A stretch of 64,000 bases of DNA, from contig JARFXP010000001.1 of assembly GCA_029194675.1 (NCBI GenBank), positions 434,001-498,000 on the forward strand, given 5' to 3'. Below are positions 4,106-10,184 of the stretch, piece by piece. Position 1 is the first letter of the stretch; every line of letters starts with the position of its first letter. This stretch comes from Nitrospira sp. (GTDB taxonomy: Bacteria > Nitrospirota > Nitrospiria > Nitrospirales > Nitrospiraceae). The position numbers and the translations under genes are program-made. The notes beneath the pieces were generated by a model. That model was not told the DNA's origin and ran no database searches. It saw nothing but the letters and a program-made list of their open reading frames with translations.

Positions 4106-5461
4106 TCACTCGGGGTTGAGCGGTGCGAGGATCGGTGCACGCTCGGCAGTTGCCTTGCCGCCGCTAATGACTTGTTTGCGCACCCAACGCAACGACCGTG
4201 CAAAGCTCTCGCTGGAAAAGTTCGTCGTCGAAATCTGTGCAGACCCGAACCGCCTTGCCAGCAATGCCTCGGTTCCCTCCTTGTAATGATCATCCTGTGC
4301 AAGGATGGCGGCCTGTTCGGCTCGCGCCGGCGGCTCACCATGCCTGGACCGGTCAAGCCACTCATATAAAAACTGGACAGTCCCCACCTCATCACCGTGA
4401 GCGACGGCAGCTTCAAGCAACGCGAACGCAACCGCCTCCGAGGCCTCGTATCGACGGCGCTGCTCAGCTCGTCGAGACGCCAGTGCGTTCCCGTACCGAC
4501 GGAACTTTGGCCAGAGCAACCAAATGGCAATGGTACCAGCCAGAGCTCCGACTCCCCCTATCGCCCAACGCCACATATCTTCGACGCGGGATCGAGGCAA
4601 TGCCGATTCATCTATTTCAGCCGGCAGCGCAATCTCCGGCCGGGAATCGGGATTGGGCGCGGCATCAAACGCGACCGATGCGACGGTATGTTCGCGAAGT
4701 TTACCGAGCCGAAGATCCCACCACTGCACCGTGACAGCCGGCAGCTCGTAATGCCCAGGCTTCTGGACCACATAGGTGGCAGAGTCGATTCGACGACCGC
4801 CGATAAAGCCTTCCCGGTCTCGCGAAATATTCTCCACTTTTGGTGCATTCGGATAGACGGCAAGACCCTCAACTTCGGCAAAATGAATCGGCGGTAAGAA
4901 CATCGCCTGCGTTCCTTTCGCTGTCGATGTGATGGTGCGGGTAAACGCATCTCCGACATGCAATCCGATCGGCTTATGGTCGAACCGCTGGACCATGTCC
5001 AGACGACTGGTCGAGAGGAAGACCGCGACCCCTTCCGCTCCTGCCGGAACCCGTGCTGTGAACTTTCGCGCAGGAGACCAGACCTTCACCGGACCGGGAG
5101 CCATTCCTGGATGCAGTACGATCTGAAGGCGCGGGATCGCAAATTCGTGCGGCTCCATCGGGGTGACGATATAGGTCTGCGTCAGCCCGAACCACGTGAC
5201 TCCATTGATCTGCTCCGTAAGGTGGGGAGCCTGTTCATCCGACCGGATCACCAGCGCGCCGGGCAGGTCGAAGATAGGAAACTCGGGCGCACTCGTGAAC
5301 CAGGTGGTGACCAACACATCGACGACCAGCTTCACCGGTTGTCCGACGACCACCAGGCCTGCCGGCTCAAGATGCGCTCGCACCATTGAGCGGGCTCCCT
5401 CCTCAGCCATCGCATGGCCGGCCACCAAACAGAACAACAGTGTCGCTAGTGTTTTCATCAC
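4106..5461 (-). CDS. batD: BatD-like membrane protein
   Basis: A 451-residue protein with a signal peptide (about 1-19), a long beta-rich periplasmic region and one transmembrane segment near residues 300-320 (IGGVGALAGTIAIWLLW). A charged cytoplasmic tail follows. The arrangement fits the BatD family of the Bacteroides aerotolerance (Bat) system. The start overlaps the batB stop by four bases (ATGA), implying translational coupling. It ends the minus-strand moxR-bat operon. Its molecular role is unknown; BatD is thought to act with BatA and BatB in an envelope complex. Confidence 0.8.
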   Translation of the reverse strand: MMKTLATLLFCLVAGHAMAEEGARSMVRAHLEPAGLVVVGQPVKLVVDVLVTTWFTSAPEFPIFDLPGALVIRSDEQAPHLTEQINGVTWFGLTQTYIVTPMEPHEFAIPRLQIVLHPGMAPGPVKVWSPARKFTARVPAGAEGVAVFLSTSRLDMVQRFDHKPIGLHVGDAFTRTITSTAKGTQAMFLPPIHFAEVEGLAVYPNAPKVENISRDREGFIGGRRIDSATYVVQKPGHYELPAVTVQWWDLRLGKLREHTVASVAFDAAPNPDSRPEIALPAEIDESALPRSRVEDMWRWAIGGVGALAGTIAIWLLWPKFRRYGNALASRRAEQRRRYEASEAVAFALLEAAVAHGDEVGTVQFLYEWLDRSRHGEPPARAEQAAILAQDDHYKEGTEALLARRFGSAQISTTNFSSESFARSLRWVRKQVISGGKATAERAPILAPLNPE

Positions 5462-7188
5462 AGCCTGTCTTGTGGACGCTTCAACTCCTCAGCCTGCACG
5501 CGGAATTTCTCTCGTAGAAAATCCGCCGGCGAGACTTTGAGATTACGCATCCACAGCTCCGCCATTTGCTCGGGCTTGACCTTCACCTGTGGCACGGCTC
5601 CATACTTGCCACGTTTGCCTTTCTTGTCGAACTTGATGTCATCGGGATCGAGATTCGGATCCGCTTCCCCTTGATCATCGTGTGACTTCTTGGGAATGAG
5701 CGACGCAACAAGCGTGCGATTCTGGATCGCCTCTCGGAACGCCGGACGTCCCTTGAGTGCATGGTCATAGGCTCCCACGGCGGCCGGAAATTCCTTCATG
5801 CGAGCGTAACAATTGCCCATGAGAAAGAACGCCTCCGGCGTATCGAGGCGCGCAAACTGCGTCAGCGCCGTCGCATAGTCGCCGCTTCGATAGTAGGCCA
5901 GCCCCTTCCACATCGGATCGTTGAATCGCTCCGCGGCCGTGGAGTAATCGCCTTGGTCGAAGTACCAACGACCCTGTTGGTCGAGAGTCAAGAACCAACT
6001 CTCGACAAGCTCCAAAATCCAAGCACCAAATTCCAAACCTCTGTTTGAGATTTGTGATTTGTGATTTGGGATTTCATTCGCATGATTTGGGATTTCATTC
6101 AAATTTGGTGCTTCGGATTTGGTGCTTGATGCTTCCTGTGCATTGGCATACCCTGGACCTGTCACTCCCATTAATATTGCCAGTGCGATGACTCCCATCC
6201 ATCGGACGGTCCATCCTCGCCGGAACCAGAGTGCAGCCAGCAGGACCAGAGGAAAGGTGCCGTAGTAGCCGAACTCCTTCCACCGAACCTCCGCGGTGCG
6301 CTCGTTGACGACTTGCAGATAGTGCAGGGCCTTGCGCTGGACCCATTCGACATCGGCTTCGTCCAATGTCACGCTCATCACCGGCATGTCCGCCTCGGAA
6401 CTCATTCGTGTGAAGGTCTCGCGGTCGAAACGCGCCTGCACCGGCACTCCACGAGCATCGAGGGCGACCCTTCCGTTCTGGCTTCGAATGGGTCCGCCTT
6501 GGGATGTCCCCACAGCGAGTGCGAGTATTTGATCCCGCGATTTCCGTTGATGCTCGGAAAGTAACGGGATCTGTGCATCGTCGAATGCATCTGTGATGAA
6601 GAGCACCGTTCCGGCAGCCGATTCCTTTTCCAGGAGACGGTCGGCCAGGGCCAACGCTGCCACAGCATTTCTTCCCGCTACCGGCATCAGATCCGTTTCG
6701 AGTGCGGCAAGGAAAATCTCCAGGAGCGCGGGATCTTCGGTCGGAGGCAGCACGAGATGCGCCGTCCCCGCATAGACGACCAGTCCCGTCCGTGATCCGG
6801 ATCGCAGTGCGGCAAGATCACGCACCTTTTGCTTTGCCCGTTCAAGCCTCGTCGGCGGGACATCGACGGCATCCATCGTGCGCGAGAGGTCGATTGCCAC
6901 GACCATCGGAGCCTTGTCCTCGGTGAATGGCGGCGGTTCTCTCTCCCAAACAGGCCCGGCTGCCGCGATGCCTGCAAGGATGACCGCCACGGTGATCATA
7001 TGCATCGGGCGCAACCGAAACCCCTGCTTAGCTCCAATAATGAGATGATCGAGCAGATGCGGCGCGATGATGCCGGCCCATTGTCGGCGCTGGTCTGTAT
7101 GCCTCTGCCAGATCCAGACAAGCCACAAGGCAGCCGGGATACAGAGCAGCCACAAGGGACGCAGAAAATGGAAAGTGTCAAATCTCAA
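5458..7188 (-). CDS. batB: BatB/BatC fusion: vWA domain plus TPR domain
   Basis: A 576-residue protein with two N-terminal membrane segments and a von Willebrand A domain whose metal site begins DLSRT (DxSxT). Two further hydrophobic segments follow near residue 310-345, then a C-terminal TPR region (FNDPMWKGLAYYRSGDYATA and following). It combines the parts usually called BatB and BatC. Two oddities are visible. The only start is a TTG at 7188 that lies inside an AAATC-type repeat tract. The linker between membrane and TPR parts (encoded about 6013-6130) is repeat-derived, with NEIPNHANEIPNHKSQISN. The neighbours are batA, batD and a four-helix-bundle ORF. Confidence 0.85.
   Translation of the reverse strand: MRFDTFHFLRPLWLLCIPAALWLVWIWQRHTDQRRQWAGIIAPHLLDHLIIGAKQGFRLRPMHMITVAVILAGIAAAGPVWEREPPPFTEDKAPMVVAIDLSRTMDAVDVPPTRLERAKQKVRDLAALRSGSRTGLVVYAGTAHLVLPPTEDPALLEIFLAALETDLMPVAGRNAVAALALADRLLEKESAAGTVLFITDAFDDAQIPLLSEHQRKSRDQILALAVGTSQGGPIRSQNGRVALDARGVPVQARFDRETFTRMSSEADMPVMSVTLDEADVEWVQRKALHYLQVVNERTAEVRWKEFGYYGTFPLVLLAALWFRRGWTVRWMGVIALAILMGVTGPGYANAQEASSTKSEAPNLNEIPNHANEIPNHKSQISNRGLEFGAWILELVESWFLTLDQQGRWYFDQGDYSTAAERFNDPMWKGLAYYRSGDYATALTQFARLDTPEAFFLMGNCYARMKEFPAAVGAYDHALKGRPAFREAIQNRTLVASLIPKKSHDDQGEADPNLDPDDIKFDKKGKRGKYGAVPQVKVKPEQMAELWMRNLKVSPADFLREKFRVQAEELKRPQDRL
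6013..6130. repeat. AAATC-rich palindromic repeat tract inserted in frame in batB
   Basis: On the minus strand this tract contains repeated AAATCCCAAATC and AAATCACAAATC units. They are bordered by AAGCACCAAAT on one side and ATTTGGTGCTTGG on the other, so its ends are inverted copies. The same vocabulary flanks the four-helix-bundle ORF at 7204-7506. It is translated in frame as a low-complexity linker in BatB. It looks like an ORF-less relative of the unit between batA and batB. Confidence 0.7.
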
Positions 7189-7211
7189 ATCACAACTTCC
7201 AAATCACAAGG
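7179..7211. repeat. AAATC-type repeat, downstream flank of the four-helix-bundle ORF
   Basis: The plus strand reads CAAATCTCAAATCACAA followed by a second CCAAATCACAAGG unit. It is the inverted counterpart of the tract at 7570-7634. It contains the TTG used as the batB start codon (7186-7188). Confidence 0.7.
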
Positions 7212-7506
7212 TCGATTTCAACGCGATCGAGGACAATATCCTGGTTAGTTCTTCAGCCTCGCGAATCAGATCATTCAGTTCGTCTATTCGTTCGAACTCG
7301 TTCGTATCACGGATGAGTCGCAGCCAATAGGCGCTTTCTTTGGCTTCCTTCCGGCTGATCCGGATTCTCATCAAGAAATCCTTCCGGCTCAGCGCTTCGT
7401 TCGCTTCTCTGTAGTTGGCTCCGACGGAACCGGATGCCCTTATGAGCTGTTTACTGTCTTCAATGATCCAAATGTTCCTAGGCAAAGTCTTGACGAATAT
7501 CCTCAC
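7204..7506 (-). CDS. Four-helix-bundle protein (23S rRNA intervening-sequence protein family)
   Basis: A 100-residue helical protein with SVGANYREANEALSRKDF and RISRKEAKESAYWLRLI, hallmarks of the family found in 23S rRNA intervening sequences and as free-standing genes. Its function is unknown. The family-like coding sequence continues about 29 codons upstream of the GTG at 7506 (reading KFGYDEKPVYDLEERTFQFA) back to a stop at 7594-7596, with no ATG, GTG or TTG. The normal start therefore seems lost or non-standard. The ORF sits between batA and batB, bounded by inverted AAATC-rich tracts. Confidence 0.75.
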   Translation of the reverse strand: MRIFVKTLPRNIWIIEDSKQLIRASGSVGANYREANEALSRKDFLMRIRISRKEAKESAYWLRLIRDTNEFERIDELNDLIREAEELTRILSSIALKSTL

Positions 7507-7558
7507 AGCCTTCGCGAACTGGAACGTTCTCTCTTCCAGATCGTAGACCGGTTTTTCA

Positions 7559-8602
7559 TCATATCCGAACTTGTTTTTTGTGATTTGAGATTTTCATCCA
7601 CGTTGGAACTTGGTGCTTGTGATTTGGAATTTGCCCCCATGTCAAAAACATCATCACCAGATGGTAGCCAAGCAGCAATGCGATTGCGGCCCCCAATGGA
7701 TAGTAGAAGAGCGCTCTTTTGGGCCTGTAGATGGAACGGGTCACCTTTTCCGGAGTAGTGTCGTCGATGGTGCGGTAAATCCCCTCCAGACCATGCCGGT
7801 CTTCTCCTCGGAATGAACGACCGCCTGTTGCCGCAGCGATACTCCTGAGCGCGTTGAGATCAACCCGCTGTTCACCTTGGGCTCGCGGGTCGCCGATGCC
7901 GATCGTGTGGATGGTGATGCCTCGCTGCTTGGCAATTTCCGCCGCCTTGTGTGGCGGCAGATTGCTGGCGGTGTCGTTCCCGTCTGTGAGGAGTACCAGC
8001 AGCCGTTCTTTCGATTTGGAATGCTCCGTCATTTTGATCGCGACACCGATCGCGTCGCCGATGCTGGTCTGGGGTCCGGCCATGCCGATCCTGACTTCGT
8101 TCAGCAACAACCGCACGCTTTCGTGGTCCATGGTGAGCGGCGCCTGCGGGAATGCCGCCTGGCCGAACACGATCAATCCGATCCGATCGCCTTTCCTCCG
8201 GCGGATGAAATCGTCGACGACCTGCTTGACCGCCCTCAGCCGATCCACGCGGCGCCCGCCCGCATCGACAAAGTCACGCGCTTCCATCGATTGGGAGAGA
8301 TCAATGGCCAACATCAGATCCCGCGCCGATTCAATTCGTTCGAGAGGCGGCTCGATCCACTGCGGGTCAGCCGCAGCTGTGACGATGAGCCCCCAGGCGA
8401 TCGGAGCAAGAATTTTCTGCGCCCAGTTTGACTGGATGACGACTGCGCCGGGCGCCGGCTTGAGTCCCGCCGCCTGCGCAGCCTCTTCGAAAAACGGAAT
8501 ACGGACGGCGTGACTGACTTCACGATAGGGCGGTAACAACCGCCACACGAGCAACGGCAGCGGGAGCGCGGCAAAGGCCCATGGGACATCAAACGCGAGC
8601 AT
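7559..8602 (-). CDS. batA: BatA-like vWA membrane protein
   Basis: A 347-residue protein with N-terminal membrane segments (about 8-24 and 63-78) and a von Willebrand A domain with an intact metal site (Asp101-Leu-Ser103-Gln-Ser105). A second conserved LLTDGNDT motif is present, and a C-terminal membrane helix near residue 305-325. Its start overlaps the DUF4381 gene by 14 bases. The last 25 or so residues (GQIPNHKHQVPTWMKISN...) are encoded by the AAATC-type repeat, so the native C-terminus was probably replaced when the neighbouring unit inserted. Confidence 0.85.
   Translation of the reverse strand: MLAFDVPWAFAALPLPLLVWRLLPPYREVSHAVRIPFFEEAAQAAGLKPAPGAVVIQSNWAQKILAPIAWGLIVTAAADPQWIEPPLERIESARDLMLAIDLSQSMEARDFVDAGGRRVDRLRAVKQVVDDFIRRRKGDRIGLIVFGQAAFPQAPLTMDHESVRLLLNEVRIGMAGPQTSIGDAIGVAIKMTEHSKSKERLLVLLTDGNDTASNLPPHKAAEIAKQRGITIHTIGIGDPRAQGEQRVDLNALRSIAAATGGRSFRGEDRHGLEGIYRTIDDTTPEKVTRSIYRPKRALFYYPLGAAIALLLGYHLVMMFLTWGQIPNHKHQVPTWMKISNHKKQVRI
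7570..7634. repeat. AAATC-type repeat, upstream flank of the four-helix-bundle ORF
   Basis: On the minus strand it contains TTCCAAATCACAAGCACCAA and then AAATCTCAAATCACAAA. It is inverted relative to the tract at 7179-7211. It encodes the C-terminal tail of BatA. Confidence 0.7.
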
Positions 8603-9092
8603 GGTGATGGGTGATCCAGCGCCGCACCAGGGAGAGGAGATCCGTCACCTCAGAGATCGGAATCAGGGCCAGATCCGCCGGTGCGCCGTAAGCCAATCGC
8701 GGAAGCAGCCGACCGGGACCCCGTGCGAAGCCACCGGGTGGGTAGGTCCGGTCCAGAAAGACGAGCCATTCGTTGTTTGAGAGACCGGCGATCTCCGGTC
8801 GCGGTAGAAATGAAAGCGCCGTCTGTTTCACGAGTGGCGGGATGGCCGCAAGCGCATCGCCTCGCCTGGCTGGATCAGCGAGCAACGCCTCCAACGTCCG
8901 CAATTGGGCGGCGGCGGCCCGGCGATACCGGTTGCTGGCCCACCATCGACGCCACCGCCATGCGCCATAAGAGATCGCCGTCACGAGAAACAGGCCGAGA
9001 AACACCCACCCGACCGTCTGGGGTGTGTAAGGAACCGGGGGAGGAAGGGAGATTTCCAGAAGACCAGATAAGGCCTGTTCAGTCGTCCTCAT
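8589..9092 (-). CDS. DUF4381 protein of the bat operon
   Basis: A 167-residue protein with one transmembrane segment near residues 27-43 (TVGWVFLGLFLVTAISYGAW) and a cytoplasmic domain of the DUF4381 type. The family is encoded almost only in moxR-DUF58-bat operons, as here. Its biochemical role is not known. It overlaps batA by 14 bases. Confidence 0.8.
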   Translation of the reverse strand: MRTTEQALSGLLEISLPPPVPYTPQTVGWVFLGLFLVTAISYGAWRWRRWWASNRYRRAAAAQLRTLEALLADPARRGDALAAIPPLVKQTALSFLPRPEIAGLSNNEWLVFLDRTYPPGGFARGPGRLLPRLAYGAPADLALIPISEVTDLLSLVRRWITHHHARV

Positions 9093-9104
9093 CGGCTAAT
9101 TCCC

Positions 9105-9231
9105 AACAGGATGTTGAAAAATGCCTTCAGCTTTGTTCTCGCGGCGCTCAGAAGCTCGACGTACAGAAAAGAGTACGCCTCGCCTCCTCGCTAGCTGCGG
9201 CCTTGCTGGAAGACCTTTTTGAACATCCTGT
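9105..9231. repeat. Palindromic dispersed repeat, about 127 bp, copy 1
   Basis: It begins AACAGGATGTTGAAAAA and ends TTTTTGAACATCCTGT, so the ends are inverted copies. The arms remain complementary with mismatches for over 30 bases, and the centre is also palindromic around GTAC. A second copy lies at 62624-62749. No ORF is present. It lies between the DUF58 and DUF4381 genes, inside the bat operon. Confidence 0.8.
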
Positions 9232-9248
9232 GTGCTGTTCTCCCAGTT

Positions 9249-10184
9249 TTAAGGCCGCGTACGGTGGCCGAGCAGGTGCCGCACCTGATTGACGACATCG
9301 TCCGCCGTGTTGACCATCATGAGCGGCACGCCGCTGCGACGAAGCAATTCTGCAACCTGACGCAGCCGGCCGGTCGAAAAGGTTTCGATCGGTTCCCGGA
9401 CTGTTCTCTCGCCAAGGTTCAACTCGATCTGAAGCCGGCCTTCAGTCACCACGATTCGTCCACCCTGATGTCCCGTTTGGGCCAGCGGATCGAAAACCAG
9501 CGCCGCAATGACATCATTGTGAGCGGCAAGCTGCCGCAGCAACTGTTGCGTCCGCTCGCCCGCGCCCGCAAAGTCGCTCGCGATCATGATCAAATGATCG
9601 TGGCCGGCAAGCGCGAGAGCTTCTTCGAGGGCCCGGTCGAGCTGGGCCTGGTTCGGCTGCACGGAACTGTCGGCGTGAAGCGATTGATTCATGACGACCA
9701 CAGCGGCGAAGATCGCTTCTATCCGACTGCGGCTGCGGTGTGGACGGAATCTATGAATTTCGTCGTCGTTAAAGACGATCCCACCGACCCGATCGCCGGC
9801 GCGGAAGACCATCCAGGCGCCCAGTGCGGTCAGGTGAGCCGCTGTTACCGATTTCAATGCGCGCCGCGACCCAAAGAACATCGACAGTCGTTGATCGACG
9901 ATGAACAGGGCCGGTCGATCTCGCTCTTCGCTGTAGGCCCGCACGTGCGGCGTGCCCAATCGCATGGTCACTTTCCAATCGATCGTGCGAATGTCGTCGC
10001 CGGGGAAATAGTCGCGGATCTCCTCGAAATTGAGCCCACGGCCGCGCACTCTGAATGCATGACGTCCGGCAAGGACGCTCCCGCTCCGCCGTCGAGGCAA
10101 CAACGACAGACCGGCGGCCTTGAACTCGAACGCCATCAGCTCGTGGAGCGACACATAGACGCCGGGAACAGATCGTCCTTCCAT
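9249..10184 (-). CDS. DUF58 protein of the moxR/bat operon
   Basis: A 311-residue cytoplasmic DUF58 protein. It shows the hallmark stretch GRGLNFEEIRDYFPGDDIRT followed by DWKVTMR, and a vWA-like C-terminal half. DUF58 proteins are encoded next to MoxR ATPases and are thought to be their partners in envelope-associated chaperone systems. The gene is separated from moxR by an inserted sulfatase gene and a moxR fragment. No strong ribosome binding site is visible, perhaps because the upstream sequence was replaced. Confidence 0.85.
   Translation of the reverse strand: MEGRSVPGVYVSLHELMAFEFKAAGLSLLPRRRSGSVLAGRHAFRVRGRGLNFEEIRDYFPGDDIRTIDWKVTMRLGTPHVRAYSEERDRPALFIVDQRLSMFFGSRRALKSVTAAHLTALGAWMVFRAGDRVGGIVFNDDEIHRFRPHRSRSRIEAIFAAVVVMNQSLHADSSVQPNQAQLDRALEEALALAGHDHLIMIASDFAGAGERTQQLLRQLAAHNDVIAALVFDPLAQTGHQGGRIVVTEGRLQIELNLGERTVREPIETFSTGRLRQVAELLRRSGVPLMMVNTADDVVNQVRHLLGHRTRP

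Follow-up and report, generated by a model that had tools for sequence, protein, structure and literature searches.

A four-helix-bundle gene between inverted heptad arrays in a Nitrospira bat operon: a probable copy of a widespread mobile unit without a recombinase

A stretch of 64,000 nucleotides from Nitrospira sp. (assembly GCA_029194675.1, contig JARFXP010000001.1, positions 434,001 to 498,000; hereafter the window) contains, at the junction of batA and batB, a small open reading frame (ORF) of the S23/23S_rRNA_IVP family that is enclosed by degenerate seven-nucleotide words in inverted orientation. We suggest, with a probability of roughly two in three, that this S23 gene and its heptad arrays are a single copy of a mobile unit that is widespread, lacks a recombinase, resembles the intervening sequences (IVSs) of 23S rRNA genes, and resides in operons that are transcribed into mRNA. 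An original prediction, made from the DNA alone, had singled out the locus as a candidate mobile unit, and it is supported by near-identical units that are present at unrelated sites and whose homology ends in the arrays. An S23 gene together with its arrays measures 0.45-0.73 kb.

The S23 gene is located on the minus strand (7204..7562; stop at 7204), and its frame is open up to approximately position 7593. It matches PF05635 with 58.8 and 63.3 bits (cut-off 33.8) and TIGR02436 with 77.2 and 80.9 bits (cut-off 24); with curated cut-offs passed and a four-helix-bundle fold, the ORF is a member of the family known from 23S rRNA IVSs, as had been predicted. An AlphaFold2 model of the S23 protein from the sister species consists of four helices (pLDDT 91), and the best match of this model in the PDB is 2rld, followed by 2gsc and by Avd, a protein of diversity-generating retroelements (DGRs). 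S23 is the sole frame between the arrays, and the unit encodes neither a transposase nor a recombinase. The ORF lies between complementary terminal sequences, as does that of a 23S rRNA IVS, and its site is the batA-batB junction, not a 23S rRNA gene. Nothing was found by a promoter and terminator scan or by comparison with PHROGs, and the comparison with Rfam gave no real match.

The array word around the S23 ORF can be written as AAATCNC/GNGATTT. The 5′ array (7569..7633, minus strand; AAATTCC AAATCAC AAGCACC AAGTTCC ... AAATCTC AAATCAC) is translated as the C-terminal tail of BatA, and the 3′ array (7179..7206, minus strand) carries the inverse words (GATTTGG AAGTTGT GATTTGA GATTTG) and provides the TTG start codon of BatB (7188-7186). 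The inverted repeats comprise a pair of 16 nt without mismatch (7180-7195 / 7578-7593), one of 18 nt with 94% and one of 38 nt with 74% identity, in keeping with the predicted inverted tracts on both sides of the ORF; a unit of 7 nt describes the repeats better than one of 9 nt, which corrects the earlier account. The 5.2-Mb genome contains five occurrences of the word pair AAATCNCAAATCNCAA, one in either flank of the S23 ORF and three within an ORF-less heptad tract inside the BatB gene (about 6006..6135, minus strand), in which forward words are followed by inverse words in frame. A period-7 scan of the window detected the S23 flanks and this tract only, and nothing in five shuffles. The BatB tract, which the original prediction had overlooked, adds approximately 41–44 residues that lack a counterpart in outgroup BatB proteins where these can be aligned, and that are present in the sister species. 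It is best explained, as a part of the reading proposed above and at the same strength, as an ORF-less derivative that uses the word vocabulary of the S23 unit.

The upstream neighbour of the S23 gene is a BatA-type vWA gene (7559..8602, minus strand) whose C-terminus runs on into the array, and the downstream neighbour is a BatB-type vWA/TPR gene (5458..7188, minus strand) in which an array word replaces the start codon. These two labels had been exchanged in the earlier annotation: by order and content (vWA plus TPR), its batA is BatB, and its batB is BatA. In outgroup bat operons the batA-batB junction is empty, BatA stops, and BatB begins with M..FHFLRPWWL; in the window, array words stand at both ends, and the earlier statement that the insertion altered both neighbours is thus correct.

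Matched inverted heptads are found around most S23 genes. The copies within the locus sets assembled here are not independent samples; the figures describe the sets and are not exact probabilities. PF05635 matches are present in 33 of 59 relatives, and the flanks of these S23 genes contain short words with a period of seven that are inverted from left to right, most copies having words of their own. A test of the S23 flanks in the genus with a fixed AAATC vocabulary looked negative because most of these copies use other words, and it was abandoned for a word-free test in which the number of inverted 7-mers shared by the left and right flanks of one copy (matched) is compared with that obtained when flanks are swapped between copies (mismatched). 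In the genus and order, 7.0 such 7-mers are shared by matched flanks versus 2.3 by mismatched flanks and 2.3 by far flanks; for 28 loci across the phylum, the values are 12.8 versus 3.0, with 3.3 in 262 control ORFs. Matching holds inside the same genome as well (7.4 versus 2.7; p 1e-14), and the base composition of the host can therefore be ruled out as its cause. An inverted-arm score above the 99th percentile of the far-flank control was reached by 75% of 194 S23 loci.

Scanning the collection with the subfamily to which the window gene belongs yielded 504 relatives; the best 80 of these, which are the top-scoring loci of one conserved-motif search and not a random draw, span more than 15 phyla. 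Nearly all of them carry AAATC-type words, direct upstream and inverse downstream of the gene, with 5.1 and 5.4 period-7 runs per flank versus 0.6-0.7 far away, and 16.0 shared inverted 7-mers in matched versus 9.6 in mismatched and 4.0 in far flanks. Significant inverted flanks are present in 96% of the loci in the set across the phylum and in 87% of those in the set across more than 15 phyla. The proposal that the flanks of other family members be inspected for the same repeats thus gave a clear outcome: in more than 15 phyla, members of the DLEERT subfamily have the AAATC-type vocabulary, and the other subfamilies have heptad words specific to their clade. In the DLEERT subfamily, moreover, the S23 start codon falls inside the conserved word CAATGACC. 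Word similarity correlates with protein identity (r 0.69; best of 500 permutations 0.11), also in the global set alone (0.32 versus a permutation maximum of 0.18). Two scans of viral contigs detected no S23 relatives, and phage records gave two weak hits only.

Evidence for movement comes from three Desulfobacterales in which near-identical S23 units occupy unrelated sites, namely an apparent type II secretion operon (L177), a position downstream of an ABC transporter gene (L178), and an intergenic position between regulator genes (L180). The L178 and L180 units are 88% identical over 466 nt, and this identity extends 61 nt beyond the 5′ end and 63 nt beyond the 3′ end of the gene and stops there; in total, 17 pairs show homology that is confined to the unit. 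The S23 gene of the window has its nearest relatives in the tree among Desulfobacteraceae and Calditrichota, not in its own phylum; this tree, built from 115 columns, is poorly resolved and has few supported forks. Empty sites, which the original prediction had asked for, exist in the outgroup bat operons and at the thiC-thi4 junction, where 14 of the 30 genus genomes, including the window's own, have an empty site of 12-13 nt. Among the same 30 genomes, three junctions are filled with S23, four carry ORF-less heptad hairpins, two have short gaps, and seven contain copies of an unrelated 142-187-nt sequence. This latter sequence (L150, L159, L164-L166, L174, L176), with the ends AAGGCTGCTCAAAATGG...GGCCATTTTCAGCAGCC, looks like a miniature inverted-repeat transposable element (MITE). 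Two other genera also have S23 at thiC-thi4, with other words that are matched within each copy. When 183 loci were assessed by simple gene calling, S23 was in sense with both neighbours in 155 of them and antisense to both in none, against a baseline of 71% co-directionality for ordinary adjacent genes.

Among 79 genomes of the genus, only one other (G085) possesses this bat operon, and it has the same S23 insertion. The arrays of this sister species are far longer (~195 nt upstream in higher-order units of ~39 nt, and ~165 nt downstream), its S23 gene has an intact ATGATG start, and its BatB tract is present with words that have drifted. A comparison of the S23 genes of the two genomes gives a dS of 0.37, a dN of 0.026 and a dN/dS of 0.07 (BatA 0.12; BatB 0.13), a ratio that indicates strong purifying selection on S23. 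In the window, the ATGATG (7562-7557) is out of frame by 1 nt, and GTG at 7506 is the first common start codon in frame. The reported lack of a normal start is thus real and arises because one base, relative to the sister, is missing directly after ATGATG; since the S23 frame is otherwise conserved, the sequence comparison points to a recent deletion or an assembly error. The unusual mode of expression that had been considered finds no support in a single indel within a gene under such strong purifying selection.

We envision that the two arrays would pair in the polycistronic mRNA of the host to form a long, imperfect stem whose loop contains the S23 ORF, as in the 23S rRNA IVS, and that the paired segment might be cut out or insulated with little harm to the host; RNase III would be the obvious agent. 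The S23 oligomer may bind the stem or a DNA form of the arrays, and thereby make the unit persist and move; such a recognition of arrays by the protein is suggested because of the association between clade and word. The bias for the sense orientation fits a dependence on host transcription, and RNA folding of the sister copy predicts a structure compatible with the array stem, folding alone being no proof.

Several observations weigh against the proposed mobile unit. The excess of G-U over A-C mismatches in the stems (343 versus 283) does not differ from that in mismatched controls (p 0.16) and does not discriminate between pairing in RNA and in DNA, and some S23 sites (hemE, thiC-thi4) are common to several genera, so that copies can be old and vertically inherited. 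Two copies on Nostocales plasmids (L287, L288) are exceptions to the sense bias and lie antisense between cas2 and cas1. By eye, no target-site duplication is evident at thiC-thi4, where close pairs of empty and filled sites are few, and no mobility enzyme for the S23 unit was found. Furthermore, an S23 gene within 1.5 kb is lacking at 29 of the 30 array loci that were sampled, and ORF-less arrays are much commoner than S23. This last point, together with the ORF-less hairpins at thiC-thi4, itself an S23 site, and the ORF-less tract in BatB, would fit a view in which heptad arrays are an independent class of repeats that S23 uses as landing sites or safe havens, either by inserting into them or by being retained there. 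We consider this unlikely, although it is a serious rival: at unrelated sites, arrays and ORF are conserved as one block and homology ends outside the arrays, the words track the clade of the S23 protein, the DLEERT start codon is itself part of an array word, and arrays of one genome match only within their own copy. Genomes with the window's S23 subfamily carry arrays more often (odds ratio 5.3, with relatedness uncontrolled). Some ORF-less AAATNTC arrays (L277, L280 and others) are apparently located inside coding genes, for example at the same gene position in two genomes.

Even less probable, in our view, is that S23 is an ordinary operon gene that is shared horizontally, with arrays that are a by-product of mutation or regulation (through strand slippage and the correction of palindromes, or as an RNA hairpin for autoregulation) and have nothing to do with mobility. 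Strong purifying selection, the conserved hemE placement across families, the sense orientation, and the gain and loss of units in the heptad hairpins of the Nostoc trnL intron (PMC4476775) would all agree with it; it leaves unexplained the limits of homology at unrelated sites, the clean 12-nt empty sites, a distribution across phyla that is far from vertical, and words that the subfamily has in common in other phyla. A retroelement of the DGR kind, with S23 acting like Avd and a reverse transcriptase provided in trans, is improbable. The S23 fold is the Avd fold, including that in the DGR ribonucleoprotein 8ub7, the relationship is stated in PMC10053308, and reverse transcriptase domains are present in the window genome; that domain (RVT_1) is nevertheless undetected in G005 and G020, which have ten S23 matches each. 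The Y1 transposase domain is present in the window genome as well, and it is undetected in G005 and in G016 (five S23 matches). We therefore reject both enzymes as a universal partner in trans, given that neither is detectable in G005 with its ten S23 matches. The prediction was accurate in that no transposase is present in the unit; as to the dependence on something elsewhere that it deduced, movement needs no reverse transcriptase and no Y1 transposase. Chance low complexity or an assembly artefact can be dismissed almost entirely: many of the assemblies, that of the window included, are drafts or derive from metagenomes, but the unit occurs in isolate genomes (e.g., Flavobacterium) and on complete plasmids with consistent statistics, and the array words are rare in 5.2 Mb.

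The closest known counterpart is the 23S rRNA IVS of, for example, Coxiella burnetii and Leptospira, in which terminal inverted repeats form a stem, the S23p ORF occupies its loop, and RNase III excises the IVS (PMC4990558). The S23 unit has in common with it a patchy distribution, horizontal transfer and the lack of a recombinase, and differs from it by its residence in protein-coding operons, a far wider range of sites, ends made of degenerate heptad arrays instead of one 28-bp stem, and a protein under strong purifying selection, while the ORF of Coxiella reportedly undergoes reductive evolution. Insertions in the rRNA genes of the candidate phyla radiation carry 23S_rRNA_IVP genes over several sites, with ORF-bearing and ORF-less forms at the same sites (PMC11270868); unlike the S23 unit, they are located in 16S and 23S genes and mostly have homing endonucleases. 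REPIN/RAYT systems and MITEs are likewise short inverted-repeat DNA without a recombinase of their own, but the S23 unit has tandem degenerate heptads as its ends, and the Y1 domain is undetected in two S23-rich genomes. Avd has the same four-helix fold and belongs to the same superfamily as S23, yet neither a reverse transcriptase nor a template or variable repeat stands beside S23 here.

Heptad words have also been described from cyanobacteria. The P6b hairpins of the Nostoc trnL(UAA) intron consist of class I (TDNGATT) or class II (NNTGAGT) words, and whole word classes have been replaced (PMC4476775). Stems built from heptad words are a shared design, S23 loci likewise having 7-nt words of one class that are direct in one flank and inverse in the opposite one, and TGTGATT and TGGGATT, both words of the window, conform to class I when compared with the published motif only. 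The P6b hairpin, in contrast, is not described as bounding an element with a gene, and the intron as published contains no S23. In cyanobacteria and Beggiatoaceae, tandem repeats of heptamers (TAACTGA and others) are mostly intergenic, and horizontal transfer without a mechanism is suspected for them (PMC4679880); they are mostly direct repeats of one word, and S23 is unmentioned in that study. S23 genes on plasmids of Nostoc, Planktothrix and Euhalothece have heptads such as CGTAATT and ACTGGTC in their flanks, and a link between S23 arrays and cyanobacterial heptamers is suggestive. One may go further and propose, tentatively, that S23 genes and their cognate heptad arrays form a single, previously unrecognised class of transposase-less mobile elements across bacteria. 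The arrays would be built or copied by the S23 protein itself, and the heptanucleotide repeats and hairpins scattered over many genomes (those of cyanobacteria, Nostoc trnL P6b, the BatB tract) would then be ORF-less derivatives.

The protein family and its rRNA form are known; our searches of the open-access literature found no account of S23 with heptad arrays, nor of a form that dwells in operons and is bounded by heptads. S23/IVP proteins have so far been described as functionally uncharacterised and as 'found in rRNA intervening sequences', and repeats of heptanucleotides have been noticed time and again without an agent. The findings reported here tie these two puzzles together: S23 is usually enclosed by inverted heptad arrays that match each other, the choice of word depends on the clade of the protein, and the package moves between phyla. 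If our interpretation is true, the S23 unit would be a very common small mobile unit of uncultivated bacteria, located in operons mostly between genes, with no known mobility enzyme.

Some S23 loci deserve mention for their surroundings. S23 adjoins cas1/cas2 on plasmids of Nostoc, Anabaena and Pseudanabaena (L287, L288, L292) and lies between DISARM drmD and BREX pglX in Planktothrix (L289); a figure legend on CRISPR-linked proteins also names 23S rRNA IVP (PMC10910872). The proximity of cyanobacterial S23 genes to defence loci possibly reflects a bias to defence, or just plastic regions. The only other S23 gene of the window genome (L001; G000:C2:1048923-1052243) has a transposase-like frame on one side and what seems to be a type I restriction methylase gene on the other, and its different words (CTGAAATCTGAAGTTTG...) are located within the ORF and just past its end. 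In several genera of two families (L126, L128, L130, L131), S23 with the common word AACTGAGAACTAAG resides between a radical-SAM-like gene and an apparent hemE, a placement that is old and conserved. The bat operon of the window (4106-10184), carried by 2 of the 79 genus genomes, is also present in several other genera of the order with approximately 40-47% identity, and may have been widely acquired or lost. The sequence that closes the bat cluster (~9110-9250; TGTTGAAAAATGCCTTCAGCTTTGTTCTCGCGGCGCTC...) looks by eye like a dispersed repeat.

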